A stretch of 28,931 nt of DNA from a virus, in the IMG/VR virus record IMGVR_UViG_3300031223_000033, positions 1 to 28,931 of that record; one strand, 5' to 3'. The notes beneath the pieces were generated by a model. It had not been told where the DNA came from. It saw only the letters and a program-made list of their open reading frames with translations, and made no database searches. Positions 1 to 26,679 of this stretch are shown here, piece by piece. Made by a program: the position numbers and the translations under genes. Position 1 is the first letter of the stretch; each line of letters starts with the position of its first letter.

Positions 1-1720
1 ATTCCCCATCTTCATAATTGAATATGATATTAGGATCATTAAGAATTTCTCCAGTTAAAACATTAGGCCCGTTAACATGAAATATTTTATTTTCTGAAAA
101 CCTAAGTCTATAAGCCATCACTGCAGCCTGTAATAAGACTATGGCATAAGTAATACCGTCTTTTACGGTGTAGTATTTTACAGGTAAGAAAAATCTATTC
201 GCTTCATTATTACCAACCAATTGCCTAGTCCTTTCAAGGTAAAACGCCTCTGTAAATAGGGTAGGATCATCACCAAACCTTAAATCTATTTCAGAAATAT
301 TAGATCCTACTTGACCATTTTCTATAATGTAGATTTCATCTTGTATTTCTGGCACCACTTCAATACTTAATTCCTTAAATCTACTGCCTGGATAGTATGA
401 ACCAGATGAAGAAGAATTAAAGACTGAAAAAGGCTTATAGAATTTAAGATCTAATAGACCATCTTCTTCAGGTTTTATAATAAGCTCTACAGAAGCTTCA
501 CCGTTTTCAAACTTTAGATAAGCCTGGTCGTTTCGACTTACATTAAGATTGGTAACAATCACTTCACCATTTAGCTTTACTTCGTAGACTTGACTTTTGG
601 ACCATAAGGTAAAATCGGCCCCTGCTAAATCTTCATCAGAAAGAAGATCATAAAATAATCTTTCTATTTTAAGTATAATTTTTAGTGTTGAATTCTTCTT
701 TACAAAAAGTTTTTCTCTAAGTGTTATAAATTTGCTAGTGTCTAATTCTGCATCAATCCGTCTGTACACTAAATAAAATTCAGGTGGTCTTATATTAATG
801 TCTTCACTATCAGCTGAAACAAATTTATAATTCCAATTTTTTGGGCGCCATAAAGCATCAACTTGACCTCTGTAAATTACCCAGGGTACTTCATTTTCTT
901 GTATAATATCTTTAGGAAACTGAAATTTATTCCGTTCGTATGTCACAACAGCTTCTCTTATAGAGGGTACCATTCTTACACTAGGATCTGCTAGTAATGT
1001 AATTTGCTTTACCGTTCTTTCGTAAGATTCATCACGTAAGAAGTTAGCTTCTAGATCGAACACCTGGTAGCTCACATTTATCAATTGTCTTTTGTTGAAA
1101 CCTTCAATAAACCATTTCCCCTGGCACTGGTAAACTTGGCAACGCATCGACTCCAGTAAATCTTTAAGGAGTTGGTAGGCATTATCTTTATTGAAATCCC
1201 AGAGCATTGTATCTACTAGAATCTTAGACCAGTTTGGCTCATTAATGTTGATGAGAGCAGGGGAGAAGTATAATTCTAAATCTACCTTAGTCAGTTTTAA
1301 GATAGCACAAAGCACTTCAATAACCGTTTTTTCTTCATTGTAAAAGTCAGGAGAAAGCTTAAGTCCTTTGAGCAATCCCAAACCATCAACTGCAGAAAAG
1401 TTGACGTAAAATATACCACGTCTATATGGTTCTTCGTAAGATTCTGGAAGCAAGTAGCCTTGCCAAACGATTTCTTGAGTAGTCGATATTCTTTTGGTTA
1501 CCAGCCATTTGTGTTCGTCTGCTGTAAACAGCTCAACATAGGCAGCATCTCTTGCATCTGTAGCTTCTAGGGTAAAATTAAGCTCACTACCTACAATAGG
1601 TTGAGTCTTGGAGTCACCACCTATCCAATTGAGTTGTACAGAATTACGCTCTGCATATTTCAGCAAGAGTTCATTCTCTAGATTCTCCACGTCTTGTATG
1701 TGTATCTCGTAGTTAGCCAC
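1..1720 (-). CDS. Tail protein downstream of the tape measure, partial at the window edge
   Basis: The frame is open from a GTG at 1720 to the window edge, 573 codons with no stop; the C-terminus lies outside. The GTG overlaps the tape measure stop by 8 nt (GTGGCTAA), which indicates translational coupling, and no in-frame ATG occurs near the start. The protein begins ANYEIHIQDVENLE, followed by a segment around residues 30-55 (WIGGDSK, PIVGSELNF) and a GLGLLKGLKL motif near residue 125. It has no signal peptide or membrane segment and looks rich in beta-strand. A large protein directly after the tape measure in siphoviruses is usually a distal-tail, tail-associated or baseplate component. 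The tail role is inferred from position; I cannot name the exact component. Confidence 0.8.
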   Translation of the reverse strand, partial: MANYEIHIQDVENLENELLLKYAERNSVQLNWIGGDSKTQPIVGSELNFTLEATDARDAAYVELFTADEHKWLVTKRISTTQEIVWQGYLLPESYEEPYRRGIFYVNFSAVDGLGLLKGLKLSPDFYNEEKTVIEVLCAILKLTKVDLELYFSPALININEPNWSKILVDTMLWDFNKDNAYQLLKDLLESMRCQVYQCQGKWFIEGFNKRQLINVSYQVFDLEANFLRDESYERTVKQITLLADPSVRMVPSIREAVVTYERNKFQFPKDIIQENEVPWVIYRGQVDALWRPKNWNYKFVSADSEDINIRPPEFYLVYRRIDAELDTSKFITLREKLFVKKNSTLKIILKIERLFYDLLSDEDLAGADFTLWSKSQVYEVKLNGEVIVTNLNVSRNDQAYLKFENGEASVELIIKPEEDGLLDLKFYKPFSVFNSSSSGSYYPGSRFKELSIEVVPEIQDEIYIIENGQVGSNISEIDLRFGDDPTLFTEAFYLERTRQLVGNNEANRFFLPVKYYTVKDGITYAIVLLQAAVMAYRLRFSENKIFHVNGPNVLTGEILNDPNIIFNYEDGE

Positions 1721-3956
1721 GTCGGTTTCTGTAATTTTGCGCTCGCGAAATAATTAAAATTAAGTCCTGACCGCTTATTTTATTAACTACTTCTAGTTGG
1801 CTCATGTCACCGCCCATGCTATCTCCAAGCATGGATTTAAGTTTATTAAGAGGTGTTATGACTTCCGGATTTCCACGGTTTGCACCAGCATATTCACCTA
1901 CCAAAGCATTTACAGGTCCGCTGACTATACCACCATCTGCAAAAGCTACTTGGCCACCACCACCACTTTCTGCAATGTTTGCAGCTGCAGATTTTGCTAT
2001 CGTTCCTAAAGCAATTAATGCAATACCGGCAACAATAGCACTAATACCTGATAGATCAATTAGTGATTTTTTAATCGCTTCAATTGTAGTACCAATACCA
2101 AGAGCAAGTTTTCCTAGCCTTATAGCTATGTTTCCAAAAGTATTTAGTACTAAGCCTAAAAGAGCTTCCATTCCTACATTACCAGTAGCAATGTTACCAA
2201 TAATTTTACCAAAGCCTTCAGCAAAACCTAGTGAAGCTTGTTCTAGTATTTCCCTAGATCGGTTTTTAAAAAAGGCTAAGTTTTCATTTATCTTAGTCGT
2301 TTCTTCATCTATTATATCACCATCTGCTCTAAGTTGATCGCCTATCCCAGTAGACATTAATCCACCAGACTGTAATGTGCCTACAGATTGTATTTGAGGT
2401 CGTCCACCTTGGCCTGTCGGAGTTGGGTTACTAATTAATGTATCGTTAAGATTAATTATTTTTAAAAGTTCCTCAGCTTGCGCCTCTAGTTCTTTAGTTC
2501 CGTTGGCAGTTTCTAGAGCTAGTAATTTTTCTGCCAGAGCGAGTTGTGCTTTTTGTGCTGCAGCTGCTTGTGCATTATCAGCTACACCATTAAAAGATGC
2601 TGCTTGTGCATCTGTCACTGCTTTTCTTCTTGCTGATAATTCCAGTTCCTTTTCTATAATTTTTGCCTGGATCTCCTGCAGCTTTTCTTGTGCTGCTTTT
2701 GCCTTTGCAGTTTTTAGTAAGGCTTCATTATATTTATTTACAGCAGTAGTCGCTTCATCTGTATTTATAGTCTCGAGCTTTAGATTCCCCAAATATTTTG
2801 GAGAGATTCTATTGAGCTCTTGTATAGCTTTTATCCTTTGTTGCTTACTTACATTTTCATCACGAGCTGTAAATAAAAGCTCTTCGACTTTTGCCTTTTC
2901 TTTAGCGATGGCATCTGTAGCTCTATTAGTAACCTCTGTAAGTTGATCTTGACTTTCAACTACTTTTTCAGTTTCTTTATTAAATAAATAAAATGCGGAT
3001 ACAGCAACGCCAATTCCTGCAGCAATTAGTCCAAAAGGTGTGGCCAACATTGCCACTTTTAAAATTCCAAAGGCAGTAATTAATCCGGGAATAACTGTAG
3101 TCATTAGGAATCCTAAGCCTGTAAGTAATGGTCCTAGTGCAGCAACTAGACCTATAACGACCAAGGCGTTGTTTTTTATAGTAGGATCTAGATCGTTAAA
3201 AGCTGTGACCAATCTAGATACAAATTCCATGATTCTAGTAACGATAGGTTGCAAAGTTTTAGCTAGATCTGCTATAGCTAACTGGAAGGCTAACTGCGAT
3301 TTTCTGGCTTCAGTTACATCTTTGTTATTTTCCCTGTATTTTTTATTAACTTCTTCTAAGCCAGTACTGGCTAATTTGTTTAAAATAAAGTTTTGTTCTT
3401 CACCTAGTTTGGTAGCCTCTGCTAGACCAGCATTAAAATCATCTAGGTTTATTCCAGACCTTTCTAAAAGTTCTGAAAATGGACCAATAGCTTTACCAGT
3501 GGCTAAAGTTTCTTGCAGTCCATCTGCAATACCTTCAAACTTTAAAGTATCAGAAAACTTAACGGCAGCACCAGAAATATTATCTAAAGCCCTGGTAAGA
3601 TTTTCGCCTTTAAATCCAGCAGCTAGTAAGTTGGATAAACCTTCAACAGAAGAATCTGTTTCACCAGTGATGGCTTGTACTTCTTTGAGCTGATCGCGAA
3701 TAAAATTAAGACCTTCGCCAGCCAATAAAGCGTTGGTTTCCAATCTACCAAGATCGGATCTTAGCTCTTCAGTACCTTTAGTCACTAATGCAAGTCCAGC
3801 AACTACAGGAGCAGTAAAATTCATGCTCATGCTACTGCCTATACTAGATAGGCGTTTGCCGACTTTCTTCATCCTTCTATCGACATTCTGCATCTGGGAA
3901 GAAAACTGCTTAAGGTCCGCTTTAAATCTTATCGATATGTTGGCTAAACTACTCAT
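1713..3956 (-). CDS. Tail tape measure protein
   Basis: This 747-residue protein sets tail length and sits inside the tail tube before DNA ejection. Residues 1-60 (ISIRFKADLKQFSSQMQNVDRRMKKVGKRLS) are the usual amphipathic tape-measure start. A long helical region follows, with hydrophobic stretches around residues 262-322 and 625-660. The C-terminus carries the common tape-measure ending ADGGIVSGPVNALVGE followed by EVITPL. Heptad-rich Ala/Glu/Lys segments lie around residues 330-500. It is placed after the tail chaperone and before a large tail protein, as expected. A late-type promoter ends about 20 nt upstream of the ATG, so its leader is very short. The length is moderate for the family and implies a fairly short tail. 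Confidence 0.95.
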   Translation of the reverse strand: MSSLANISIRFKADLKQFSSQMQNVDRRMKKVGKRLSSIGSSMSMNFTAPVVAGLALVTKGTEELRSDLGRLETNALLAGEGLNFIRDQLKEVQAITGETDSSVEGLSNLLAAGFKGENLTRALDNISGAAVKFSDTLKFEGIADGLQETLATGKAIGPFSELLERSGINLDDFNAGLAEATKLGEEQNFILNKLASTGLEEVNKKYRENNKDVTEARKSQLAFQLAIADLAKTLQPIVTRIMEFVSRLVTAFNDLDPTIKNNALVVIGLVAALGPLLTGLGFLMTTVIPGLITAFGILKVAMLATPFGLIAAGIGVAVSAFYLFNKETEKVVESQDQLTEVTNRATDAIAKEKAKVEELLFTARDENVSKQQRIKAIQELNRISPKYLGNLKLETINTDEATTAVNKYNEALLKTAKAKAAQEKLQEIQAKIIEKELELSARRKAVTDAQAASFNGVADNAQAAAAQKAQLALAEKLLALETANGTKELEAQAEELLKIINLNDTLISNPTPTGQGGRPQIQSVGTLQSGGLMSTGIGDQLRADGDIIDEETTKINENLAFFKNRSREILEQASLGFAEGFGKIIGNIATGNVGMEALLGLVLNTFGNIAIRLGKLALGIGTTIEAIKKSLIDLSGISAIVAGIALIALGTIAKSAAANIAESGGGGQVAFADGGIVSGPVNALVGEYAGANRGNPEVITPLNKLKSMLGDSMGGDMSQLEVVNKISGQDLILIISRAQNYRNRRG

Positions 3957-3978
3957 GAAGTGACTTTGTGAATAGCTT

Positions 3979-4026
3979 CAAAAATAGAAGTGAATTCGTC
4001 TGCTGGACTCCAACATTGTTTCCTTT
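3979..4026 (-). promoter_or_regulatory. Putative phage late promoter, copy 1 (tape measure gene)
   Basis: On the minus strand the 20-mer AAAGGAAACAATGTTGGAGT (4026-4007) is followed, 24 nt after its TTG, by the -7 box TATTTTTG (3986-3979). The same element-spacer-box arrangement occurs at 4596-4643 and 11020-11067. TAnnTTTG is the known Bacteroidetes -7 element. The usual -33 TTG at about 19-21 nt is missing and the conserved 20-mer lies just upstream of that place, which suggests activator-dependent transcription (inference). Confidence 0.7.
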
Positions 4027-4065
4027 ATCCCACAAAAAAACCTCTGAGCTATTCAGAGGTTTTTT
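4006..4065. repeat. Terminator-promoter direct repeat, copy A
   Basis: About 59 bp align without gaps to 4623-4681 with four mismatches by eye. The unit holds the late-promoter 20-mer plus the terminator hairpin. Differences fall in the linker and the hairpin loop, not in the stem or the 20-mer. The two copies flank the secreted-protein gene. Confidence 0.85.
4034..4065 (-). terminator. Rho-independent terminator after the secreted-protein gene
   Basis: A 7-bp stem CCTCTGA/TCAGAGG with a 5-nt loop is flanked by A7 and T6 runs, so it could act in both directions. It lies 19 nt after the stop of the gene at 4084-4563 and immediately before late promoter copy 1. It is nearly identical to the terminator at 4651-4681. 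Confidence 0.85.
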
Positions 4066-4083
4066 AATTTAAGTAGGAAAAAT

Positions 4084-4563
4084 TTAAGCTTGTTCTGCCC
4101 TGGACCTCAAGTCTTCGATTCTTTCTGCATCAGTTTCAAAATCATCTAGCAAATCTTTACAAAAAACATTGATGTCATTTTCTTGTTTAGAACTTATCAT
4201 TGTTTTAATAGATTCAATTGAGTAGTTTTTTTTGCTATAGTTTTCAGTGCATTCATGCATAAACAAATAAACCCTTTCTTGCATAAGGTTCAAGTCGAGA
4301 ACTTCGGCACATATTTGATCTAGCAATTGTTCCTTATCCATTTCGGAATATTCTTTTACCAATTCTGGATAGTTTTCTTTAAGCTTGTCGACGTTTTTCA
4401 TTTCAAATTTAGATTTTGCAAAATCAATTGTTGAATCACTTTCAATGGGTATTTCAGATACATTTTCAAAACTGAAACTATCAGTTTCTACAAATACACT
4501 TGCTGGCATTGATGCACTCAATAAAAGAGTAAGCATTGTTAACAATAAATAAATAGATTTCAT
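4084..4563 (-). CDS. Secreted protein of unknown function, moron-like cassette
   Basis: A 159-residue protein that I do not recognise. Residues 1-21 form a clear signal peptide: a Lys, a hydrophobic core (IYLLLTMLTLLLSA) and likely cleavage near SMPAS. The mature part is acidic and mostly helical, with three cysteines (ICAEV, HECTE, VFCKD) that could matter after export. It sits between the tail chaperone and the tape measure, where phages normally have no exported protein. It has its own late-type promoter (4596-4643) and its own terminator (4034-4065), the layout of a moron. Possible roles are host surface change or superinfection exclusion, but these are guesses from position and export only. 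Confidence 0.75.
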   Translation of the reverse strand: MKSIYLLLTMLTLLLSASMPASVFVETDSFSFENVSEIPIESDSTIDFAKSKFEMKNVDKLKENYPELVKEYSEMDKEQLLDQICAEVLDLNLMQERVYLFMHECTENYSKKNYSIESIKTMISSKQENDINVFCKDLLDDFETDAERIEDLRSRAEQA

Positions 4564-4595
4564 GACTTAATTTATTAAGGTTTATATTAAAACCA

Positions 4596-4643
4596 TAAAA
4601 CTATAGCTATACATTTATGATTGACTCCAACATTGTTTCCTTT
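4596..4643 (-). promoter_or_regulatory. Putative phage late promoter, copy 2 (secreted-protein gene)
   Basis: The minus-strand 20-mer AAAGGAAACAATGTTGGAGT (4643-4624) is identical to copy 1. Its TTG lies exactly 24 nt before TAGTTTTA (4603-4596), which keeps TAnnTTT but ends in A instead of G. The leader to the ATG at 4563 is about 25-30 nt. The weaker -7 box may mean a weaker promoter. Confidence 0.6.
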
Positions 4644-4681
4644 ATGCTACAAAAAAACCTCTGAACGATTCAGAGGTTTTT
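4623..4681. repeat. Terminator-promoter direct repeat, copy B
   Basis: Second copy of the unit at 4006-4065, offset by 617 bp. Together the copies bracket one gene, so recombination between them would gain or lose the 617-bp cassette cleanly. Confidence 0.85.
4651..4681 (-). terminator. Rho-independent terminator after the tail chaperone genes
   Basis: Stem CCTCTGA/TCAGAGG with a 5-nt loop ACGAT, flanked by A7 and T5. It lies 24 nt after the stop at 4706 of the frameshifted tail chaperone and just before late promoter copy 2. It probably ends the head/tail operon that starts at the portal. Confidence 0.85.
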
Positions 4682-4705
4682 CCGAACTATGAAAAAAACA
4701 ACAAA

Positions 4706-5089
4706 CTAGATTTTAGAATTCTTACTTTTCTTTGCCTCATCTATCTTAGACCACAATTCTTTAGGATCTATTTTTTTGAGACTTTTTAATTTTGAATTAT
4801 CCCAGGCTAAAGGATAGAGATCATGCATAGATTTCTTTTTATGCTTCTTATCTAAGTGTGGAGAAAGAACAGTGACTATAAGTTCCCGGTGCATTTCCCA
4901 TCGCTCCTTAAATAGATTTTCCTCATAACGTTCAAAGCCTTTTATTTTATTCTTAAAGGCTCTAGGAGTAGTCTGGTAGAAATCATCCTCACGCATTTGT
5001 AAGATACCAAAGGCAATTTCTTCCAGTTCATCCCATGTTATTTCTTTGCTTTCGGTTTCGGTTTTGGAGCTTTCTTCTGGCTCACCTTT
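4706..5089 (-). CDS. Tail assembly chaperone, -1 frameshift extension (G-T type fusion)
   Basis: This frame is entered by a -1 slip from the gene at 5038-5418, giving a fusion of about 237 residues (110 before the slip, 127 after). From the slip the frame is open through KGEPEESSKTETESKEITWD and ELEEIAFGILQ into MREDDFYQTTPRAFKNKIKGF, then to the stop at 4706. Only the part from the Met at 4996 would look like a separate 96-residue ORF. The conserved-looking block ITWDELEEIAFGILQ starts before that Met, so an independent start there would cut it off. Phages of the lambda type make a short chaperone and a longer frameshift product that guide tail tube assembly on the tape measure. Position just before the tape measure fits. 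Confidence 0.85.
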   Translation of the reverse strand, partial: KGEPEESSKTETESKEITWDELEEIAFGILQMREDDFYQTTPRAFKNKIKGFERYEENLFKERWEMHRELIVTVLSPHLDKKHKKKSMHDLYPLAWDNSKLKSLKKIDPKELWSKIDEAKKSKNSKI

Positions 5090-5418
5090 TTTTTTCCGTT
5101 TTCTGCGCCTGGAATGCTTTTCATGAAAGCATCGACCACCGTTTGCAATTTACCAGAATCCTGAAAGACTAAATCATTTAAGATGTCATCTGTATTCAAA
5201 GACTCGCCACCAGCATTTATAACTCCAGCATTTACAAGATCTCCTATTTTTTCCAAGGCATCAAATTTGGGATCTGCACTTATATTGCTAAAGGTTTTTT
5301 CAAATACTTTAATCACACCTTGGATTCCTTCTTGTTCCCAAAGCACACCAAGATGTCTAAAAGCCCCATAACCAAACTTTATAGGGTGAGATACACCCTC
5401 TATCGTGATTGATGTCAT
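5038..5418 (-). CDS. Tail assembly chaperone, short (zero-frame) form
   Basis: A 126-residue protein starting MTSITIEGVSHPIKFGYGAF, with a compact domain to about residue 105 and a Lys/Pro-rich tail (KKAPKPKPKAKK). Small proteins of this kind lie between the tail tube gene and the tape measure gene in siphoviruses and act as tail assembly chaperones, often with a frameshifted longer form. Here a run of nine A residues (minus strand, 5095-5087) holds the heptamer A AAA AAG in the correct phase at codons 110-111. A -1 slip joins it to the downstream frame. The gene ends 5 nt from the tail tube stop region on one side and overlaps the extension frame on the other. Confidence 0.85.
   Translation of the reverse strand: MTSITIEGVSHPIKFGYGAFRHLGVLWEQEGIQGVIKVFEKTFSNISADPKFDALEKIGDLVNAGVINAGGESLNTDDILNDLVFQDSGKLQTVVDAFMKSIPGAENGKKKVSQKKAPKPKPKAKK
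5086..5095 (-). promoter_or_regulatory. Programmed -1 ribosomal frameshift site (A AAA AAG)
   Basis: Nine A residues followed by GG on the minus strand. In the zero frame the codons read GGA AAA AAA AAG GTG, so the heptamer A AAA AAG is in canonical X XXY YYZ phase, the same heptamer known from E. coli dnaX. A -1 slip gives AAA GGT GAG and enters the 384-nt frame ending at 4706. I see only a weak downstream stem (GAGC/GCTC). Confidence 0.8.
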
Positions 5419-5422
5419 AAGC

Positions 5423-5851
5423 TTATAATGGGAGATCTACTTTCTCTAACTTTTTAGATCCAGAAAAAGATATAGAAGCTGTACCATCTTCTTCTACTGC
5501 TAGATTTAGCTCCAAACTTTCGATAATACATTCACCTTTAAACATAAAAGACGCATCACCTTCTGAGGGTACAAACTCAATAGGAATAGCAGTATCAGTA
5601 TCGTCATTATAAAGATCGAACAAGGCTCCAAAATCGTGGGTGCCTTCCCCATCTGAAGCGTAAACCGCCAAAGCAGATGCAGAGCCGCTAAAAGACTTCT
5701 GGCCTTTAGCTCGTTCTATTCCCTCTGTGTCTTTTGTAGATCGCTCTCTGATTTCTCTTGTAAGAGTTACGCTACATTCTGTAGAATGATATACTGTTTT
5801 CTCGTCTAAGGTCATCCTTAGATTACCGTTTATTACTTTTTCTCCAGCCAT
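5423..5851 (-). CDS. Major tail tube protein
   Basis: A 142-residue, beta-rich, acidic protein. It begins AGEKVINGNLRMTLDEKTVYHSTECSVT and has the usual tail-tube features: an N-terminal strand pair, a middle loop (RSTKDTEGIERAKGQKSFSGS, within residues 37-57) and a C-terminal strand series with GTASISFSGSKKLEKV. It resembles TP901-1-type major tail proteins in length and in its place between tail completion proteins and the tail chaperone. It should be one of the most abundant tail proteins. I see no extra Ig-like domain. Assignment rests on pattern and gene order. Confidence 0.8.
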   Translation of the reverse strand: MAGEKVINGNLRMTLDEKTVYHSTECSVTLTREIRERSTKDTEGIERAKGQKSFSGSASALAVYASDGEGTHDFGALFDLYNDDTDTAIPIEFVPSEGDASFMFKGECIIESLELNLAVEEDGTASISFSGSKKLEKVDLPL

Positions 5852-5863
5852 AATTTCTAAGAT

Positions 5864-6217
5864 TTAAAATTTAAATTCATAATTAATTGTGCAAAGACCT
5901 TCACGGCCATCGCTATAGTTGTAACCTGTTTCGTTCCCTTTGAACTTCCAGTTGTAACTTGATTCTTTTATAGCAGTTTCAATAGCATCTGCTATTGAAC
6001 CACCTTGGTTAAGAGAGTTGGCAAATACAAACATCTCTACTGCATACTGTGCAATTCCATCTTTTGTAAGAGTTCCAGTATTGCTGAGTTTAAAATTGAC
6101 AAATGGAAGTTCTTTTTCTTCTGTAGCTAGATCCCAGAATACATTGGTTTCTATCACATCCTTAATTGCTTGCAAACTCATCACTTCATTCACATGTTTT
6201 GCTGCTTCAATAATCAT
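5864..6217 (-). CDS. Tail completion / tail terminator-like protein
   Basis: A 117-residue protein with a helical start (EVMSLQAIKDVIETNVFWDLA) followed by strands (LPFVNFKLSNTG, QYAVEMFVFANS) and the ending GLCTINYEFKF. This helix-then-strand layout and its position between the gp10-like protein and the tail tube fit the tail terminator/completion family (DUF3168-like) that caps the tail tube at the head end. Its ATG overlaps the stop of the upstream gene (6214-6699) by 4 nt, so the two are translationally coupled. The call depends mainly on gene order. Confidence 0.65.
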   Translation of the reverse strand: MIIEAAKHVNEVMSLQAIKDVIETNVFWDLATEEKELPFVNFKLSNTGTLTKDGIAQYAVEMFVFANSLNQGGSIADAIETAIKESSYNWKFKGNETGYNYSDGREGLCTINYEFKF

Positions 6218-6699
6218 TTGCTTAGTTTATTAATTTGCCTTTGTACCAGTCTTTGCATTTCCTTTTTATACTTGGCAGTAACTATAGAACTTCTACTTGA
6301 CCAAACTTTGTCTTTAGCCTTATCGACTACAGTGTTTATTCCTACTCTAGATCCAAGCTTATTAGACCCTATCTTAGTTCCTTTGTCTACAACCATATGC
6401 CTGTACCAACCCTGTTTATTGCCTTTTATGGACGGACGAACCACTACTTGTGGATTACCACCTACTTTGCGAGCTGGTACTGTTTCAATTGCCACAGAAT
6501 CTCTCAAAGTACCAGCTGGGTAGATAGTTTCAAAGCGTTTTACATCCCTGCTACTTTTTGGCAACTCATTAGAATAAGCTGGTACAAAAGGTTTTGCTAG
6601 TTTCCTTTGTATCTTAAGCACTTCGCGCCTGGTCATTTTATCGTCTAGCTTTTTAAGCTTTTTTATAAGCTCTGCAAATCCTTCTACATCAATGTCCAC
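6214..6699 (-). CDS. HK97 gp10-like neck / head-tail protein
   Basis: A 161-residue basic protein. It starts MDIDVEGFAELIKKLKKLDDKMTRRE and continues with a long helix, matching the gp10-like family start (a strand, then an L-K-rich helix). The middle part carries TLRDSVAIETV and VVVRPSIKG, followed by WYRHMVVDKGT, close to the family pattern of a Y/H-x-x-E/D-x-G-T motif. It probably sits at the head-tail interface. It overlaps its neighbours by 11 nt upstream and 4 nt downstream, as expected for a tightly coupled structural operon. Confidence 0.75.
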   Translation of the reverse strand: MDIDVEGFAELIKKLKKLDDKMTRREVLKIQRKLAKPFVPAYSNELPKSSRDVKRFETIYPAGTLRDSVAIETVPARKVGGNPQVVVRPSIKGNKQGWYRHMVVDKGTKIGSNKLGSRVGINTVVDKAKDKVWSSRSSIVTAKYKKEMQRLVQRQINKLSK

Positions 6700-7042
6700 G
6701 TCTTGTGCATTTAAGTTTAAGAAATCTATTTTTTTGTTGGCCAGATAATTCTATGGAGTTGATCTGGTAGATCCCATCAAAGTCCTTAACGAAATACTTT
6801 TGTCCATTCACAAATAGATCTGAGCTAAATCTTACAATGAAAGCCACCACTCCAATTCCAATGACTCTACCATCGTCATCATCTTGATTTCCTGTAAAAT
6901 CTTCACGCTTTGCATACACCACCTCTTTCACCAACTCATCTTCTTGAGTGGATTCTCCGGTGTCCGTCTTGGTCGCTGTGTTTTTAAAAAGAGATACTTT
7001 TCTATTTAATTGTCCAGCGTGTATGTATGCAGATGAATTCAT
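6689..7042 (-). CDS. Head closure (head-tail joining) protein
   Basis: A 117-residue protein with the start typical of the SPP1 gp16-like head-tail adaptor family: HAGQLNRKVSLFKN, then a loop (TKTDTGESTQ), a strand VVYAKREDFTG and VAFIVRFSSDL, ending with YQINSIELSGQQKNRFLKLKC. Members close the portal-connector channel and join head and tail. Its ATG overlaps the stop of the upstream connector by one base. The DDDDG stretch at residues 54-58 is acidic and probably a loop. Confidence 0.8.
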   Translation of the reverse strand: MNSSAYIHAGQLNRKVSLFKNTATKTDTGESTQEDELVKEVVYAKREDFTGNQDDDDGRVIGIGVVAFIVRFSSDLFVNGQKYFVKDFDGIYQINSIELSGQQKNRFLKLKCTRRGH

Positions 7043-7584
7043 TAAAAGGTTTTTCTGTAAGGTCTTAGAACGTTGTGTGCTGCTTGGTTAAATTTAATTG
7101 GCATATTTTCCCTGTAGGTATCGTTGTGAGCGAATAGCAAAAGACAAGCTCTCTTTATGTCCGCAGGAATGTCCGCGAGACTGTAACCAAGATTTGCAGT
7201 GATAAAGATTCTATAACCAAAATCTGAAGGAATCTCCATGTCTAAGTAGAGGATCTTACTTTCGTAATTCCAATTCTCAGTCTGGATATCTTTTAGAGTG
7301 CCATTTTCATCTTCATACTTAAGAGCTGTGATGCCATCGCCTATGATAGGAAAGTTAATTTTGAATCTATTGAACCAGCCTTCAATTTCTACGGTAGATC
7401 CCATTCGTTTGAGCACAGGATATTCTACATAGTTTTCTATCTCGGTAGTGGCTGCATCTAGAAATAGTTGTAACAATGAATCTTCATCGTCAAAATCTAT
7501 TTTAGAATTCGCTTTTGCCTGGGCTAGAGTCACTATCTTTTCTGTTGCTTCTGCAGCACCGTATGTAAGGCTGAAAGTGTTCAT
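7042..7584 (-). CDS. Head-tail connector (gp6-like adaptor)
   Basis: A 180-residue protein. Residues 17-60 read TLAQAKANSKIDFDDEDSLL, followed by LFLDAATTEIENYVEYPVL, the standard start of gp6/gp15-type connectors (the LAEAKAHLRID-D-D-DLI-IAAA-IE pattern). The C-terminal part (NLGYSLADIPADIKRACLLL) fits the helix that packs in the connector ring. It binds below the portal in the neck. A stop 3 nt before the next gene and a 1-nt overlap with the head closure gene show operon coupling. Confidence 0.85.
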   Translation of the reverse strand: MNTFSLTYGAAEATEKIVTLAQAKANSKIDFDDEDSLLQLFLDAATTEIENYVEYPVLKRMGSTVEIEGWFNRFKINFPIIGDGITALKYEDENGTLKDIQTENWNYESKILYLDMEIPSDFGYRIFITANLGYSLADIPADIKRACLLLFAHNDTYRENMPIKFNQAAHNVLRPYRKTF

Positions 7585-7587
7585 AGA

Positions 7588-7860
7588 TTATTTAACTATT
7601 TCGCCATCTTTGTTTTTTACCAACTCATCTGCCTGTTTTTCTTTTAAGATCACAGTCATGCCTTTACTTTGAGGTAGGCCGTATTTTCCAGCTGCATTGT
7701 GACAAAGGATTTTTACTTTGACATCCTTTTGCTTTTCTGCCTTTTTAGCTTTTGCTTTCTTAGCTTTAGACTTTTCTTGATCTGCAGCTTTTTTAGCTTC
7801 ACCAGTAGATTGCTCGACTTTTACATCTTCATTTTCTTCATTTTTATTTTCTTCAGACAT
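7588..7860 (-). CDS. Small lysine-rich head-associated protein
   Basis: A 90-residue protein in two parts. Residues 1-46 are low complexity and highly charged (Glu/Asn-rich, then Ala/Lys-rich, AKKAKAKKAEKQK). Residues 47-90 form a small folded-looking domain (VKVKILCHNAAGKYGLPQSK then VTVILKEKQADELVK-like strands and a helix). It lies between the major capsid and the connector genes, where head decoration or assembly proteins are common. I do not recognise the family; the head link is positional. The Lys/Ala-rich stretch could bind DNA or be disordered. Confidence 0.65.
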   Translation of the reverse strand: MSEENKNEENEDVKVEQSTGEAKKAADQEKSKAKKAKAKKAEKQKDVKVKILCHNAAGKYGLPQSKGMTVILKEKQADELVKNKDGEIVK

Positions 7861-7883
7861 AACTTTTAAGGTTTTAATATCAT

Positions 7884-7914
7884 GTTACTCTGAGCCTATA
7901 AGACCCAGAGCAAC
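7884..7914 (-). other. Hairpin between the capsid gene and the small head gene
   Basis: GTTACTCTG pairs with CAGAGCAAC (9 bp, one G-T wobble in the minus-strand RNA) around a 13-nt loop. It starts 12 nt after the capsid stop. No T-run follows on the minus strand, so it is not a standard terminator; it could protect the 3' end of capsid mRNA or partly attenuate downstream genes. Confidence 0.4.
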
Positions 7915-7925
7915 ACAATAAATGA

Positions 7926-9206
7926 TTATATAGTGATAAATTTGTTTACTGCAAATGCAGTTGGTTGAGCAATCTCAATACCAGCAATTGCATTAACAAC
8001 TAGTCTAAGATTATCGTTCAAAGCTGCAGAAAAAGGATCTTCAAGTAAAGACACTGCGCCCCATTCACCTATAAACAACTTGCTAAAATCTCCATAGATT
8101 AAGACTTGGTTTCCAGAAAGAGCAGGAACAAGTGTAGTAGCTCCAACATTGCTACCGTTAAGATCGCTTCTGTTGTCCATAATAAATCTTCCAGAACCGG
8201 CATCCTTAGTTGTACTTAGGTAAGCTGATCTAAGCTGTGGAGACATTAGGTAAGCTCTAGCTACTTCTGTAGCATCTTCACCATCAATTAAACCCATAAG
8301 CTCTGTAACTTGACTCCAATCTGCATCTGTAGCTGTTGTTATTGCAGAGAGTTTAATGCCATCTTTATTCAAGATGCCTTCTGGCTCATTGTTGGTTCCG
8401 GCTCCGTTAATTGCTGCTCCATTAAGAGAGGTATCATAAGCCATTAATATAAGCTGTCTAATTATGTTTTCTGTATCTACAGAAGATTGAGCAATTAAAC
8501 GTCTAGAAATATCCACAGCACCACCCAATCGCTCTGGTTTTAGTTGTGGCCCTTTAAAGTCTTTGGCTTGTGGTGTTATTCCAGCATTCTCTGCTAACCA
8601 TGCCATAGTAAACTTTTGTCCAACAGGAAGGGGAATAGATCCTCCAGTTAAACCAGATAATCTTGTAGCCCCAAGAGACTCTAAGAATGTTGCTGGTTGA
8701 AAAGGCATTTGCACTCTTGGAGTTTGATCTACTACAAATTGTCCACCTTTATCTCCACTATCACCAGTTACAGATTGGTTCCTTAAAACTGACATTGGGA
8801 TAGTAAATCTTGATTCACTAGGAGTACTAACCCCAGCATCTCTATTTGCTTGGATTCCAATTTCGTTTAATTCCTTTTCAGCACCATCTAAAGCTTTTTT
8901 ACTTCTAAAAGCTTTGCTTATAGATGCGCGCTCAGTGATTTCACGCTTTTCAGCTTCTTCACCTTTTGGTTTAGCACCACCTTTGCGCTCACCTTTTTGG
9001 GCAGCAGCTCTTTTTTCGAAGTCCTCAATTTGTCTCTCTTCTGCAATGTCAGCATCTAGTGCCTCGATTTCAGTTTGGAGAGTTGCAAATTGTGTTCTTT
9101 GTTCGTCGGTGAATTTTCCATCACCTTCTTTTCTGGCCTTGACCAGATCTTCTTGAGCTTTAGTTTTTGAAGCTCTCTCTTGTTGTAACTGTGCAATTTT
9201 AAGCAT
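7926..9206 (-). CDS. Major capsid protein, HK97 fold
   Basis: A 426-residue protein. Residues 1-~110 are a charged coiled-coil delta domain (LQQERASKTKAQEDL, EIEALDADIAEERQI), which acts as an internal scaffold and is normally removed by the prohead protease encoded just upstream. From about residue 150 the HK97-fold body follows: an N-arm and strands (TFLESLGATRLSG, PVGQKFTMAWLAENAGITPQ), the spine helix region (DTENIIRQLILMAYDTSLNGAA), then AYLMSPQLRSAYL and a C-terminal strand region with LLEDPFSAALNDNLRLV. The start overlaps the protease stop by 8 nt. Confidence 0.95.
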   Translation of the reverse strand: MLKIAQLQQERASKTKAQEDLVKARKEGDGKFTDEQRTQFATLQTEIEALDADIAEERQIEDFEKRAAAQKGERKGGAKPKGEEAEKREITERASISKAFRSKKALDGAEKELNEIGIQANRDAGVSTPSESRFTIPMSVLRNQSVTGDSGDKGGQFVVDQTPRVQMPFQPATFLESLGATRLSGLTGGSIPLPVGQKFTMAWLAENAGITPQAKDFKGPQLKPERLGGAVDISRRLIAQSSVDTENIIRQLILMAYDTSLNGAAINGAGTNNEPEGILNKDGIKLSAITTATDADWSQVTELMGLIDGEDATEVARAYLMSPQLRSAYLSTTKDAGSGRFIMDNRSDLNGSNVGATTLVPALSGNQVLIYGDFSKLFIGEWGAVSLLEDPFSAALNDNLRLVVNAIAGIEIAQPTAFAVNKFITI

Positions 9207-9822
9207 GGGTATTATTTTTATTGATTAATAATTGAGCTTCAAAAACATCAAATCCTGAAGTTCTTTTTTGTTCATCTGCATTATCTTCTGCAGGTATAAT
9301 TGGTGTAAATTCTTTTATAATCTCATTGAGATCACTTGTATTTCTGGCCAGTGCATCTGGATTGGAGTTTAGAGAAACAATAGACCACTCGACTAGCCTC
9401 TGCTGTGTGAAATACAAAACATTGGGATCTTCATTAAGATCTTCTAGTCCATATCTACCGTCTAATATTTCGGCCCTTATAGAGGCTCCACGAATTATTC
9501 CATTCTTAACCTTGTTGAAGATCTTCTCTGCTAGAGGATTGTTTTCTGCAGCTTCAAATTTTGCGCGACCTATAACTAAACCATCTTCTATAAAAACTAC
9601 TGAAGTTCCAATTACACTATCAGCATCGGTGTGATTATGGTTAAAACATACAATAGGATTTGTTTCGTAGCGATCAAGCAGCCATCCATTACTTTTAAAA
9701 ACAGTATCATAAGTATCTACAGCTTCACTAGAAATTACAAAGTCAATAGTTCTTTCTGCTTCGTTTATACTGTCTGCACGCACTTGTGCATTTCTTACTT
9801 GTATTTTATCCTTTGCTTTCAT
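9199..9822 (-). CDS. Prohead protease, HK97 gp4-like (peptidase S78)
   Basis: A 207-residue serine protease that cleaves the capsid delta domain during head maturation. The family pattern is visible: EAERTIDFVISSEAVDTYDT, then FNHNH (His 62/64), RGASIRAEI (Ser 114) and RLVEWSIVSLNSNPDA (Glu 145). These give the H, S and E of the S78 catalytic triad at family-like spacing. It sits between portal and capsid as usual and overlaps both neighbours (17 nt with the portal, 8 nt with the capsid), showing tight coupling. The C-terminal 30 residues are polar and may be lost by self-cleavage. Confidence 0.93.
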   Translation of the reverse strand: MKAKDKIQVRNAQVRADSINEAERTIDFVISSEAVDTYDTVFKSNGWLLDRYETNPIVCFNHNHTDADSVIGTSVVFIEDGLVIGRAKFEAAENNPLAEKIFNKVKNGIIRGASIRAEILDGRYGLEDLNEDPNVLYFTQQRLVEWSIVSLNSNPDALARNTSDLNEIIKEFTPIIPAEDNADEQKRTSGFDVFEAQLLINKNNTHA

Positions 9823-11002
9823 CAGCTAATAGTTTTTTCATTTGTTCTTCGTTAAGAAGATTAGACATTTGTAAAAATTGATCACCATCTGGATATGGGT
9901 TTAGACTTTCTAAAACTCTAATTTCGTTGGGAGTCATAGCCTTAAGGAATACCATAGACTTGTAATATTCTGCTCTGGACTTAGGATCTACCTGTAGTAG
10001 TATTTTAAAGTTTTGATCTATCGCTATCGAATTAGCTTTTTCAGGATCTGTGAAAAGCTTAAATTCGATTTCTTCTTTTATCTTTTGGGCTAAAGGTTTT
10101 ACAGCAGACTGCAAATAATCCTGTTCCATTTGCACCATAGAGTTATAACCACCTTCACCCTTTATTCTTAATTTGTGATTCGGTATGTGTAACCACCTGG
10201 CGATATCTTCTGTACCACTGGCGTAGGTTTCAATAAATTTTGATTCTTCAGGATTAAGACCTATGCTTTTATATTTCATCCCTTCATCCAGTACGGCTGC
10301 TCTATGCTTATTCATAGATGTAAGCCTTTTTTCGAAGGCTGTACCTAAAGCGTCTTTTGCAGTACTGTCTATTTTTTTGTCAGATTCAATTACACCATAG
10401 CTTAGGCCTTGATCTTCTAGAGACATAGAGCCAAATTTTTGTGCATTTAATGTAACACCAAGGTTATCTGCTGCAAATTCTAAAACAGATTTTCCAAGCT
10501 TTCCATCAAATGAAAAACCCGAAACGTGAAAGACTTCGTAAGCACTGTACATCTCACTTTTGTATTGATAAAATAATTTACCTTCATGATCTATAACCGT
10601 GACTAGACTGGAATCCCAAAAGTCTAAGGATATTTTGTTTCCAGATTCATCGGTTACGATACCAGCAAAGTAATTACCCCTCAATAAAACAGTGAGAGCG
10701 ATTAAATGCTTAAAGCCAAAAGGCGACTGGTGATGATTGGGTCTATTGTTAATTAACTTATTGACCGGATGGTCCTTAAGATAAGTAATATTGTTATCTG
10801 TTTTTTGTACTACAGCATGTGGAAGTATTGCTATGGAATTTGCTATCATGTCTATTCCGCTATAAAAAGCGGAAAGCGTTAATGAGGTGCGGACGTTTAC
10901 CTTCTTTGAAGATTCGGTTAGGCCATAAGCAAAACCAGGAAAGCCTCCAACAAATGTTTGAGCACTTACAACTGATCTTAACGCATTTTGAAAAACAGAC
11001 AT
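9806..11002 (-). CDS. Portal protein, HK97 family
   Basis: A 398-residue portal, the dodecameric channel for DNA packaging and ejection. Family features are VRTSLTLSAFYSGIDMIANSIAILP near the start (first-helix A-V-W-A-C-V-I-A-S-L pattern), FKHLIALTVLLRGNYFAGIV, then IARWLHIPNHKLRIKGEGGY with NSMVQMEQDYLQSAVKPL, and the C-terminal helix ahead of DQFLQMSNLLNEEQMKK. It is the first gene of the late structural operon, behind late promoter copy 3. Unusually, it is not next to the large terminase, which lies 8.4 kb away on the same strand. Confidence 0.95.
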   Translation of the reverse strand: MSVFQNALRSVVSAQTFVGGFPGFAYGLTESSKKVNVRTSLTLSAFYSGIDMIANSIAILPHAVVQKTDNNITYLKDHPVNKLINNRPNHHQSPFGFKHLIALTVLLRGNYFAGIVTDESGNKISLDFWDSSLVTVIDHEGKLFYQYKSEMYSAYEVFHVSGFSFDGKLGKSVLEFAADNLGVTLNAQKFGSMSLEDQGLSYGVIESDKKIDSTAKDALGTAFEKRLTSMNKHRAAVLDEGMKYKSIGLNPEESKFIETYASGTEDIARWLHIPNHKLRIKGEGGYNSMVQMEQDYLQSAVKPLAQKIKEEIEFKLFTDPEKANSIAIDQNFKILLQVDPKSRAEYYKSMVFLKAMTPNEIRVLESLNPYPDGDQFLQMSNLLNEEQMKKLLADESKG

Positions 11003-11019
11003 ATTTCTTTTATCTGCTT

Positions 11020-11067
11020 CAAAAATATGGGAGCTATCTAATTAAAAACTCCAACAATGTTTCCTTT
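11020..11067 (-). promoter_or_regulatory. Putative phage late promoter, copy 3 (portal and head/tail operon)
   Basis: The minus-strand block AAAGGAAACATTGTTGGAGT (11067-11048) differs by one base from copies 1 and 2. Its TTG is exactly 24 nt before TATTTTTG (11027-11020), and the following GAAGC is also shared with copy 1. The leader to the portal ATG at 11002 is short. This is the likely main late promoter for about 6.3 kb of head and tail genes. Confidence 0.7.
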
Positions 11068-11079
11068 GTTGGAGTTTTT
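11044..11079 (-). terminator. Terminator hairpin that contains the late-promoter element
   Basis: ACTCCAACA pairs with TGTTGGAGT (9 bp, extended by flanking A and T runs) around the 10-nt loop ATGTTTCCTT, and a T-run follows on both strands. It can end transcripts from the gene at 11145-11492. The stem's promoter-side arm plus loop are the conserved late-promoter 20-mer, so one sequence seems to serve both jobs. Confidence 0.75.
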
Positions 11080-11096
11080 AAAATTTTGCTAACAGT

Positions 11097-11800: not shown

Positions 11801-12310
11801 TTATTTTAATTTACTTTCAAATTCATTCCAACTTTTACTAAACTCATGATTGGCGAAAGCTTCTTTCAGCCCTGTTATTTGTTTAAGTCTTAAAACTTCT
11901 TCAGCATCCATGCCTAGATGTTTTGCAACTTCTAGATCTGCCCAGCCTGCTTTAGTAAGAGATAAAACAATATCACTCATTCCTTTAATAGCATGTGTTC
12001 CTCTAGCTCTGTTATGACGAATAGTTGAAGCCATTCGCTCATCTATGTTTTTATTTATAACCACTACTGGTACTTCCTTGATTTTGAAATATTCTTTAGC
12101 ACATCTATATCTATGAAATCCATCAACAATAACATATTTTGAGCCATCAAAATATGTAACTATTGGCTGAGTATAACCATCTTCTTCTATACTTAATCTT
12201 AAAAGCTTCATTTCTGGAGGAGCTACACTATTTGGATTATAATCGTTTGCTTGAAGTAAATTAATATCAACAAGCTTAACATCTAATACTGGGAATTTAA
12301 TTTTTTTCAT
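11801..12310 (-). CDS. ParB-like (IbrB-like) protein
   Basis: A 169-residue protein with a ParB/sulfiredoxin-fold N-terminal domain: VKLVDINLLQANDYNPNSV (residues 11-29), VDGFHRYRCA (62-71, the D-G-x-H-R signature) and IRHNRARGTH (97-106). A helical part with an HTH look follows (GWADLEVAKHLGMDAEEVLRL). It overlaps the PAPS-reductase-like gene by 14 nt. This pairing is that of IbrA/IbrB, known from an E. coli prophage as regulators of immunoglobulin-binding proteins and found in many mobile elements. Whether ParB here binds nucleotide or DNA, or modifies DNA, is not shown by the sequence. Confidence 0.82.
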   Translation of the reverse strand: MKKIKFPVLDVKLVDINLLQANDYNPNSVAPPEMKLLRLSIEEDGYTQPIVTYFDGSKYVIVDGFHRYRCAKEYFKIKEVPVVVINKNIDERMASTIRHNRARGTHAIKGMSDIVLSLTKAGWADLEVAKHLGMDAEEVLRLKQITGLKEAFANHEFSKSWNEFESKLK

Positions 12311-13592
12311 TTTCTAACTCTTTTTTAAGATTTCTCATTTCTTTGGTGCTTTCCTGTATGCCTAGTAATTTACCCCATTTTTCTTTTAGTAAAACCATAT
12401 CTTCTCTATCCGCTTTTGTAATTCCATAAGAAAGTGAACGACAAGCAAAATCATTTTTTTCTATTGCTTTAGCAATACGCTTCCAATGTATCCATTTGCC
12501 ACTTGTGTGATCACCAAATTTTTTAATGATTTCTTTTGGAGACATTTCATCCTTTATTTTAGAAATATTTACACCTTCTTCTTTTTCAAAAAAAGCAAAA
12601 AAAATTTTTATTTTTCTTACGTAATGATCTCGAAGCTCTGGAGAGTACATTCCTAAAGATTCCAGCAAAAAAACTGCATATTGTTCCCAATTCAAATGAT
12701 TTGGCTTTGAAGTGCCGTTATGGCCTAGTAAATCGGTCTTGCAATAAATATTTCCAAAATTTGCACCACTTACTCTATTCACCACCTTATGCCAAGTTTC
12801 AGGTTCTAGAGAAGCCCATTGATTAAGTGAAACCCTTTGATCTGCTCCATAGGGCTGGCAAATACGCTGTTCGTGTATTCCCATGCCGTTTTTATACATC
12901 ATTTCATAGGATTTATTAAATTTCAAATTAAATTTACTTACAGCATGCCATACATCTTCTGTCCTCCAATCGTAGATAGGATAAATGTTAAATACGTTTT
13001 CTTTTATTTTCGTAGTCCAGTTTAACCCTTTATACAAATTCTTTCCAAAAGCGATAGCCCTAAACCTATTCATAGACTCATCTGTTCTTATTCCTACAAA
13101 ACAACCTACCTTTTTGGAATTGTGCTTTTTCATTAACCAAAGAGGAAATTTATACATGAAATCTTCAACTTCTTCTCCAGGAACAAATAAGTTGCCAAAA
13201 GGATGATTAAATTCATTTATACAATCATTAGGCATTTCACGCACCCACTTATCTTTATCTTTTTGTAACCAAGGTTGCCAGTTGGGCTGGAATACACTAC
13301 TAGCGTTATGAGAATTGAAAGGCAAGCATAAATGATAAAAATCACGTATTTGTGAAAGCTCTTTAAGCTCATAAACATGATCTATCGTTGCTTTATACTG
13401 CGCTTCATAATCTACATAAAACACATCAAAAGTTCTTTTTCTTTTTTCAGCTTCACTATTAGCAAGCTGAAGCATTACAGAAGAATCTTTACCCCCAGAA
13501 AAAGAAAAATAAACCAATTCAAATTCATCAAAAATGAAATTTATTCTTTCCATGAAAGCTTCATAAACATTAGTGTCTAAATACTTTTTCAT
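12297..13592 (-). CDS. PAPS-reductase-like PP-loop protein (IbrA-like)
   Basis: A 431-residue protein. The PP-loop SFSGGKDSSVM (residues 30-40) is the ATP-pyrophosphatase site of the PAPS reductase/sulfurylase superfamily. Conserved-looking blocks follow: DVFYVDYEAQY, FVGIRTDESMNRF, NIYPIYDWRTEDVW and MGIHEQRICQPYG. The long C-terminal half resembles the DUF3440 extension of IbrA proteins. The catalytic Cys motif of true PAPS reductases (ECGIH) is not seen, so sulfate reduction is unlikely. Related PP-loop enzymes thiolate tRNA or DNA (DndC). It overlaps the helicase gene by 4 nt (ATGA) and the ParB-like gene by 14 nt, so all three are probably made together. Confidence 0.85.
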   Translation of the reverse strand: MKKYLDTNVYEAFMERINFIFDEFELVYFSFSGGKDSSVMLQLANSEAEKRKRTFDVFYVDYEAQYKATIDHVYELKELSQIRDFYHLCLPFNSHNASSVFQPNWQPWLQKDKDKWVREMPNDCINEFNHPFGNLFVPGEEVEDFMYKFPLWLMKKHNSKKVGCFVGIRTDESMNRFRAIAFGKNLYKGLNWTTKIKENVFNIYPIYDWRTEDVWHAVSKFNLKFNKSYEMMYKNGMGIHEQRICQPYGADQRVSLNQWASLEPETWHKVVNRVSGANFGNIYCKTDLLGHNGTSKPNHLNWEQYAVFLLESLGMYSPELRDHYVRKIKIFFAFFEKEEGVNISKIKDEMSPKEIIKKFGDHTSGKWIHWKRIAKAIEKNDFACRSLSYGITKADREDMVLLKEKWGKLLGIQESTKEMRNLKKELENEKN

Positions 13593-17409: not shown

Positions 17410-17423
17410 AGTTTTTTTAAATT

Positions 17424-19017: not shown

Positions 19018-19203
19018 TTAATTTTTGAGTTTTTCTTTTAAAATAAAAATGCACACTGCAATTTCAAAAGCCATCAGAATTATTATAAGTAAAATTCTTA
19101 TCCAGTGGTCGTTGATCCATTTCAAATCGAGTAGGGTAGAAGTCGCCAGTGGGAAAGCAAAAGTGAGCACTACTATAAATATAAATTTGAGGTCTTTTTT
19201 CAT
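19018..19203 (-). CDS. Small membrane protein
   Basis: A 61-residue protein with two hydrophobic segments (about residues 6-24, LKFIFIVVLTFAFPLATST, and 35-55, IRILLIIILMAFEIAVCIFI) and a Lys-rich end. Function unknown. It overlaps the gene upstream by 4 nt and ends 9 nt before the ATG of the methyltransferase frame. Holin-like size and topology are noted but not supported by context. Confidence 0.6.
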   Translation of the reverse strand: MKKDLKFIFIVVLTFAFPLATSTLLDLKWINDHWIRILLIIILMAFEIAVCIFILKEKLKN

Positions 19204-19424
19204 TTCTTGTTGTTTTTTCTATTATTCACATTGCTAAAACTTCTGTAACATGAGTATTTGTACTCCCCAAAAAATTCAAAGTATTGATCGTTTGCCCGGT
19301 TAAAGGCTTCAAGATTTGTTTTAGAGGTTTTTAGCATTTCAAAAAAGTAGTTGTAAAATCCTACGTTAGTGGCCAGCTTTTTAATTAATTGATTTTCAGT
19401 TTCTAATTCAGAATGTGATTTCAT
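19200..19424 (-). CDS. Hypothetical small protein after the large terminase
   Basis: A 74-residue charged protein that I do not recognise, starting MKSHSELETENQLIKKLATN with YNYFFEMLKTSKTNLEAFN and ending NNRKNNKK. It is probably helical. It overlaps the large terminase stop by 17 nt and the membrane protein gene by 4 nt, so it belongs to the same transcript. Confidence 0.6.
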   Translation of the reverse strand: MKSHSELETENQLIKKLATNVGFYNYFFEMLKTSKTNLEAFNRANDQYFEFFGEYKYSCYRSFSNVNNRKNNKK

Positions 19425-26056: not shown

Positions 26057-26362
26057 TTACTGTCTTAAGTTTTGAAGTTTTTGTATTGCTTTTGTTCTTA
26101 GTTTCCAAACAGATCTATTGCCTTTATTCAGCATTATGAGATCATCTTCTTTAGCGTATTTCTTAAGAAAGATCTTTACGGCCTGTCGTGATATTTTACC
26201 AAATACCTGTGCATCCGAGAGTTCCTTAAAACTGGCAAATACCTTTCTACTCACTAGCTCTTTTGCAGATTGTACCTTTAACCTTTCTTGCACAAGATCT
26301 CTAGGAGCAATCATAAGATCATTGCTTTTTAGATAGTCTACAAATTGATCTAGAGTGCTCAT
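26057..26362 (-). CDS. Hypothetical early protein, possible DNA-binding
   Basis: A 101-residue basic, helical protein: MSTLDQFVDYLKSNDLMIAP, then LVSRKVFASFKELSDAQVFG and KISRQAVKIFLKKYAKEDD. The segment ISRQAVKIFLKKYA could be a recognition helix, and RSVWKLRTKAIQKLQ a trailing basic helix. Its start overlaps the stop of the upstream gene by one base, so they are coupled. No family recognised. Confidence 0.6.
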   Translation of the reverse strand: MSTLDQFVDYLKSNDLMIAPRDLVQERLKVQSAKELVSRKVFASFKELSDAQVFGKISRQAVKIFLKKYAKEDDLIMLNKGNRSVWKLRTKAIQKLQNLRQ

Positions 26363-26637
26363 TATTCTTTTTTTAAAGTATCTACAATAGATTCCAATTC
26401 AAGTATCATCTCTACCTTATGGGCTCTCATATTCCAGAATTCGTGAAGCTTTTTTAGCTTATGATAATCTCTGTAACTTGGATCAAGTTCTTGAACAATC
26501 ACACAGAATGCAGATCGATTATCAAAGCCCATTTTCTGAAACTCATTAATAATATTTACACACCTTGCAAATAGTTGCATCCTCTCATTATGCGGTGTAA
26601 TTGATATTGCTTCCATATATTTGTTTTTAAATTGCAT
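26362..26637 (-). CDS. Hypothetical early protein, first gene behind the 26666 promoter
   Basis: From the ATG at 26637 the protein has 91 residues (MQFKNKYMEAISITPHNERM onward). An ATG at 26679 in the same frame would add 14 residues but lies upstream of the -7 box at 26666-26673, so I choose the inner start. The segment VQELDPSYRDYHKLKKLHEF then WNMRA has a form I associate with small Bacteroidetes phage proteins of unknown role. It is helical and has no signal peptide or enzyme motif. Confidence 0.6.
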   Translation of the reverse strand: MQFKNKYMEAISITPHNERMQLFARCVNIINEFQKMGFDNRSAFCVIVQELDPSYRDYHKLKKLHEFWNMRAHKVEMILELESIVDTLKKE

Positions 26638-26665
26638 AGATTTTGAATAAAAATCTTTGTCAAGA

Positions 26666-26673
26666 CAAATATA
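26666..26673 (-). promoter_or_regulatory. Early promoter -7 box (TATATTTG)
   Basis: A perfect Bacteroidetes -7 element on the minus strand, about 29 nt before the chosen ATG at 26637. The -33 position reads ATT rather than TTG, so it is weaker or needs help. It would drive the early and replication run towards 15.9 kb. Confidence 0.55.
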
Positions 26674-26679
26674 ATACAA

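Follow-up and report, generated by a model that had tools for sequence, protein, structure and literature searches.

A fixed-register dyad at late operons and a candidate small activator protein in phages of Flavobacteriia-type hosts

We propose, at a probability of roughly 0.8 and on comparative sequence evidence, that the late operons of the phage described here are served by activator-dependent promoters for the host RNA polymerase, at which a small phage protein, c9a, would bind a dyad centred at -42 and the sigma-A holoenzyme would be recruited or positioned. It is also quite likely that c9a stands for a hitherto undescribed family of phage activators, very small and unrecognised in fold, which would govern the head and tail operons of phages across Flavobacteriia-type hosts; every phage would have a dyad of its own, and the recognition code would be partly readable (residue 69 to half-site position -2 and residue 64 to position -7). 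We set out the promoter class, the candidate activator and the residue-to-base rule below.

Results

Promoter elements in the window

The window, by which we mean the whole stretch of 28,931 nt that was analysed (positions 1-28,931 of IMG/VR virus record IMGVR_UViG_3300031223_000033), contains three copies of the 20-mer AAAGGAAACAWTGTTGGAGT, all on the minus strand (Table 1), as a first-pass annotation of this DNA had reported; allowing up to 3 mismatches revealed no further copy in the window, and the chance expectation was 0.01. From the end of the 20-mer to a TAnnTTT-type box the distance is exactly 20 nt at each of the three copies. The TTG within the 20-mer lies exactly 24 nt from the box (TATTTTTG, TAGTTTTA and TATTTTTG, in the order tape measure, 159-aa gene and portal), and the spacers are not alike in sequence, both of which the annotation had also described correctly. 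Its placement of the copies before the genes for tape measure, a secreted protein and portal was borne out as well, the second being an ORF of 159 aa with a signal-peptide-like N-terminus. The 20-mer, in which it had seen a short palindrome, is an imperfect dyad with 3 of 7 positions paired. Scans for sigma-70 -35/-10 promoters returned fewer matches than in shuffled sequence.

Within the window, copies 1 and 2 do not count as independent, because each is the end of a repeat of about 55 bp (terminator plus 20-mer) flanking the 159-aa gene; independence is supplied by copy 3 and by the relatives. Since this duplicated terminator and activator box flanks it (window 4034-4682), the 159-aa gene seems to have been added together with a late promoter of its own. 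The activator box predicted for this gene is absent in most relatives, and the ORF had no family match above the cut-off. At the portal promoter, the right half of the dyad forms the 3' arm of the terminator-like hairpin, and T-rich sequence follows the hairpin.

Table 1. Coordinates of promoter elements and associated genes in the window
Feature	Position	Strand	Remarks
Tape-measure gene	1713..3956	minus	ATG at 3956; downstream of copy 1
-7 box TATTTTTG, tape-measure promoter	3979..3986	minus	predicted +1 near 3974
Activator box (predicted), tape-measure/tail operon	4007..4026	minus	dyad core GGAAACAATGTTGGA at 4009-4023
Intrinsic terminator directly upstream of tape-measure box	4034..4066	minus	-16 kcal/mol, z -3.75; in second half of the ~55-bp repeat
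159-aa extra gene, signal-peptide-like N-terminus	4084..4563	minus	ATG at 4563; flanked by duplicated terminator and activator box
-7-like box TAGTTTTA, 159-aa gene	4596..4603	minus
Activator box (predicted), 159-aa gene	4624..4643	minus	dyad core GGAAACAATGTTGGA at 4626-4640
Intrinsic terminator directly upstream of second box	4651..4682	minus	-21.6 kcal/mol, z -6.9; part of first half of the ~55-bp repeat
Portal gene, first gene of head operon	9806..11002	minus	ATG at 11002; phrog_12, E 1.3e-82
Predicted +1 of portal promoter	near 11015	minus	box-to-start distance taken from PMC6847099
-7 box TATTTTTG, portal promoter	11020..11027	minus	starts 30 nt past dyad centre
Strong terminator-like hairpin at portal box	11042..11081	minus	-20 kcal/mol, z -6.9
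Activator box (predicted), portal/head operon	11048..11067	minus	dyad core GGAAACATTGTTGGA at 11050-11064
c9a, 74 aa, proposed late activator	19200..19424	minus	directly after large terminase
c9a codons 57-74, putative recognition segment including helix 60-72	19203..19256	minus	covarying residues: 64 (with half-site position -7) and 69 (with -2)

Promoter geometry in related phages

The exact 20-mer was found in 29 further viral stretches, which together with the window hold 42 copies. All 42 are followed by a TAnnTTT box at an identical distance, although neither the spacers nor the terminator stems upstream are constant. Because every copy keeps both box and distance, the 20-mer is not scattered through relatives free of such a constraint, which was the pattern that the first-pass annotation had named as counting against its proposal.

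Portal relatives at about 30-76% identity were drawn from viral contigs and from named prophages (Mesonia aquimarina, Flavobacterium oncorhynchi, Myroides, Aquimarina and others). The 20-mer of the window is missing from their portal upstream regions, but these have the same geometry. In these relatives a 15-bp dyad, for example GTTAACAATGTTAAC, GGGAACAATGTTCCC, TCCAACAAAGTTGGA or TACACATGATGTGTA, has its centre exactly 30 nt ahead of the first T of a box of the form TAnTTTTAC, TAnTTTAGC or TAnnTTTG. The fixed 24-nt spacer claimed earlier is true of the window copies, whereas what the relatives conserve is the 30 nt from dyad centre to box and not the distance from TTG to box; similarly, the family of late promoters is supported by the comparative data, but it is a class spanning dozens of phages and not a family of three copies.

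The symmetry was quantified in 41 non-redundant portal upstream regions from Flavobacteriia-type phages and prophages, taking the box nearest the start, which left no choice of box. Mean pairing at offset -30 was 4.51 of 7 over the 41 loci, compared to 1.96 ± 0.18 for shuffled sequences at one offset, and the highest value reached at any offset in 2000 shuffles was 2.83. The best dyads with at least 5 of 7 pairs fell at -30 in 23 cases, and at no more than 3 for each of the other offsets. An A-rich pentamer precedes the dyad at positions -42 to -38 from the box, the commonest box form in the relatives is TAnTTTTA, and A is the usual final base of the box (TAnTTTTAC). A TTG at 17-23 nt upstream of the box was present in 0 of 41 promoters, with 3.1 expected, which is consistent with loss of the -33 element that the annotation had reported as absent; this is weak evidence, because the -33 element of Flavobacterium johnsoniae is poorly defined anyway, and weak even in host promoters (PMC6847099). 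Relatives collected by their tape measure from outside the near clade had no dyad directly before that gene.

Many of these phages have the site twice. In 16 loci, a second copy of the phage's own dyad lies 6.3-7.1 kb downstream of the portal dyad with identical box spacing, and copies with spacing shifted by ±1 to ±4 nt were found in 0 loci. Where genes have been called, this second copy is the tape-measure promoter. Identity between dyads is 97.5% within a phage and 44% between phages, and the corresponding values for the spacers are 48% and 31%. The portal site alone was seen in several phages (L118/G003, L135/G018 and phi39:1). Two genomes (G016, at 17421 on the minus strand in L207, and G015, at 21392 on the minus strand in L200) carry their own dyad once more, with no recognisable -7 box, roughly 128 nt before the portal dyad. 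In L150 (1808-2086), two tandem GTAACATTGTTAC dyads lie between a distant c9a homologue and portal, where the box spacing is unclear.

Ribosome and RNA profiling in F. johnsoniae placed the -7 box at -12 to -5, followed by 4-5 nt to the start of transcription (PMC6847099). Because the published box begins at -12 and the dyad lies at an offset of 30 nt from it, the dyad centre is predicted at -42, with a span of -49 to -35, which is the position of a class II activator site if the F. johnsoniae spacing holds. Three features of class II control were found: in the 41 loci, given the published spacing, the site has a constant place close to -41.5 from the predicted start, the same site recurs at the phage's other late operon in 16 loci, and residue 69 of a phage-encoded regulator candidate, c9a, tracks site specificity at half-site position -2.

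A candidate activator encoded beside the terminase

The annotation had suggested that a phage activator probably binds the 20-mer. Comparative data support an activator bound upstream of the -7 box, and c9a can now be named as the candidate. Among 18 larger phage and prophage genomes, c9a is the only universal small non-virion family, being present in 18 of 18 (17 by clustering, and the member in G002 by profile search, as L117), and its gene usually lies directly after that of the large terminase. The portal promoter is often no more than about 1 kb away from it; in the window the distance is about 8 kb. In Cellulophaga phage phi39:1 the homologue is the ORF at 3916-4146 of NC_021804.1. We regard c9a as phage-borne because it is rare in host genomes, where it was found in 7 of 399 from the family of Mesonia, two of these already being in our set. 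A scan of viral contigs with the c9a alignment was unsuccessful, as conservation of the protein is too low.

Library searches returned little for this family. None of 49 members matched PHROG at E<=1e-3; in Pfam, the first member had no match above the cut-off and 16 members gave weak, scattered matches only; and in NCBIfam there were only two marginal matches of single members, to unrelated families. An AlphaFold2 model (pLDDT 88) has four helices, the terminal one formed by residues 60-72, and the connection between helices 37-52 and 60-72 is 7 residues long, longer than a classic helix-turn-helix loop. Compared to solved structures, the modelled fold had no relative (best match E 5.3), and its significant viral matches are unnamed or uncharacterised phage proteins. 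Homologues near terminase also occur in phages that lack an evident dyad (L167, L170, L175 and L263, all distant and beside terminase or portal). These distant homologues may have a different role, and a role in packaging is possible there because they adjoin terminase.

Other small proteins were considered as activators and set aside: a 120-aa protein encoded before the small terminase, which was the first candidate and which Pfam classes as HNH; small-protein clusters 18, 21 and 23, which are missing from many genomes; and an 88-aa HTH_3/HTH_26 protein (26832-27098), which did not emerge as a universal family. A further family of small proteins, encoded early in the genome (window 26362-26679, minus strand), clusters with c9a by weak similarity, and a 157-aa protein of G014 (L197 3160-3633) is an apparent fusion of the c9a type and this second family. 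Between terminase and portal, the window also carries a phosphoadenosine phosphosulfate reductase-like gene (12297-13592, minus strand), and genes for a methyltransferase, an HNH protein, a helicase and a ParB-like protein likewise contribute to the roughly 8 kb that part c9a from its target.

Covariation of c9a with the dyad

Covariation between c9a and the dyad was quantified in 37 loci with portal relatedness removed. Similarity of c9a residues 57-74 correlated with dyad similarity (partial r 0.32, p 0.0003), whereas the rest of the protein, the N-terminal 56 residues, gave a correlation of about 0 over the same 37 loci. The Mantel region test is not decisive by itself, because one 18-residue portal window reaches a partial r of 0.34 and so equals the signal of the c9a C-terminus. 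At the level of single residues, z was 9.8 for residue 69 against half-site position -2 and 7.2 for residue 64 against position -7, whereas 2373 portal tests gave no value above 5.4. Arg or Lys at residue 69 pairs with C at half-site -2, and Tyr69 with A (22 of 22 half-sites); counted by locus, the Arg/Lys69 rule holds in 36 of 37.

Mapped on the portal tree, there were 9 residue changes and 10 dyad changes, 8 of which fell on the same branches and in the same direction (p about 5e-6). This result was obtained with Arg/Lys coding; parsimony coding of Tyr against the rest had given only 2 shared branches (p 0.25), because other residues than Arg or Lys also accompany bases other than C. In L125 and L061, with portal proteins 77% identical, residue and dyad traits differ jointly.

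Further loci were gathered after the rule had been formulated, through clade-specific portal alignments and a genome search, giving 32 unseen loci in which c9a is <85% identical to that of any other locus, the first set included. The rule is obeyed in 29 of the 32 (L283, L297 and L307 break it), with a Fisher p of 3.8e-6 that overstates independence, because some of the 32 loci share one clade. All 13 unseen loci with Tyr69 are without C at -2. Two loci from the search of Mesonia-family genomes, L261 and L262, served as unseen tests; the box of L262, TATTTTCG, does not fit the pattern, and this locus was therefore read by hand. It has Lys69 together with the predicted C at -2, and the related L081/L082 have Ile69 and A. 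On the tree of the combined set, 10 of the 16 and 17 changes are joint (p about 1e-5).

Discussion

The proposed mechanism is that c9a, encoded with the terminase genes, would bind the dyad at -42, presumably as a dimer and with its C-terminal helix in contact with the DNA, and that the bound protein would bring the host sigma-A holoenzyme to the -7 box or position it there. The portal/head and tape-measure/tail operons, and in the window phage also one extra gene, would thereby be turned on together, with each operon probably insulated by the terminator upstream. Binding of c9a to the dyad, as predicted from comparative data, is well supported. We infer activation and not repression from the targets and from the constant 30-nt register before a host -7 box, a register that a repressor would not need. 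Binding as a dimer, contacts with RNA polymerase and late timing would be further parts of this model, and the assignment of residue 64 to the outer and residue 69 to the inner half-site would suit a helix lying along the major groove.

Dyads near promoters are typical of repressor operators too, and some phages have the dyad at a single site, both in keeping with an operator at which a CI/Cro-like phage repressor, or c9a itself, holds the structural operons off. We consider such an operator improbable: a repressor would not need the register kept over dozens of divergent phages, no -33-like element remains to serve a constitutive promoter, and the best-supported binder adjoins terminase and its targets and is not in a lysogeny module. 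It is similarly doubtful that the dyad is a true activator site read by some protein other than c9a, with c9a covarying through linkage to the portal promoter, through co-transfer with it or as a packaging protein. The frequent closeness of c9a to the portal promoter, its homologues beside terminase in unrelated phages and the portal window that matches it in the region-level correlation all fit that explanation. Against it, the N-terminal 56 residues are equally linked and yet uncorrelated with the dyad, the residue-level rule was found first and later held in unseen loci, c9a and the portal promoter are well separated in the window, and the 18 genomes contain no second universal small non-virion family.

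A regulatory role for the 20-mer might be disputed altogether, on the ground that the copies are ordinary host-type promoters or terminator debris and share their sequence through recent duplication. Copies 1 and 2 do lie within a duplicated segment of about 55 bp containing terminator and box, and the portal box sits in a terminator hairpin. This account is very hard to sustain and already contradicted, as the spacing is exact in dozens of divergent loci while dyads and terminators change. Activator-dependent late promoters read by c9a remain our preferred interpretation.

Phage late promoters that need a phage activator together with a host sigma factor are known from Mu (Mor/C) and P2 (Ogr). 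The system proposed here resembles these in its small phage regulator, its dyad upstream of a host -10/-7 type box and its structural-gene targets, but differs in that c9a belongs to an unrelated family with no detectable relative in PHROG, Pfam or PDB, that the -7 box is of the Bacteroidota type, and that each phage has a different dyad sequence at one fixed spacing. In T4 middle promoters a MotA box replaces the -35 element, and MotA acts with AsiA on sigma-70 region 4. Those promoters likewise have an activator box in place of the upstream promoter element, but the MotA box, unlike the site found here, is not a dyad. The Bacteroidota sigma-ABfr promoter (TTTG / TAnnTTTG) has the same type of -7 box in the same place before the gene, and the TAnnTTTG form occurs twice in the window as TATTTTTG; the phage promoters differ from it in the dyad predicted at -42, in having no TTG at N17-23 and in the last box base, which is usually A. 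RinA, Ltr and ArpU are late regulators in phages of Firmicutes (for staphylococcal Ltr, PMC13123087). The proposed c9a activator is like this group in being a small regulator, associated with packaging genes, that would turn on late genes. It is unlike that group in that its gene lies downstream of the large terminase and its targets are portal and tape measure, and no homology to RinA, Ltr or ArpU was detectable in the libraries searched (PHROG, Pfam, NCBIfam and PDB fold).

Phage activators of late promoters are thus already known, but this promoter class and this protein family appear to be undescribed in the literature searched, which was mainly open-access and in which we found no description of late-gene control in Flavobacteriia phages; the annotation, too, knew of no described late-promoter class of this form. 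With the residue-to-base rule, late operons could be located in uncultured phages, and pairs of activator and cognate promoter that differ in specificity could be used as orthogonal expression switches in Flavobacterium.
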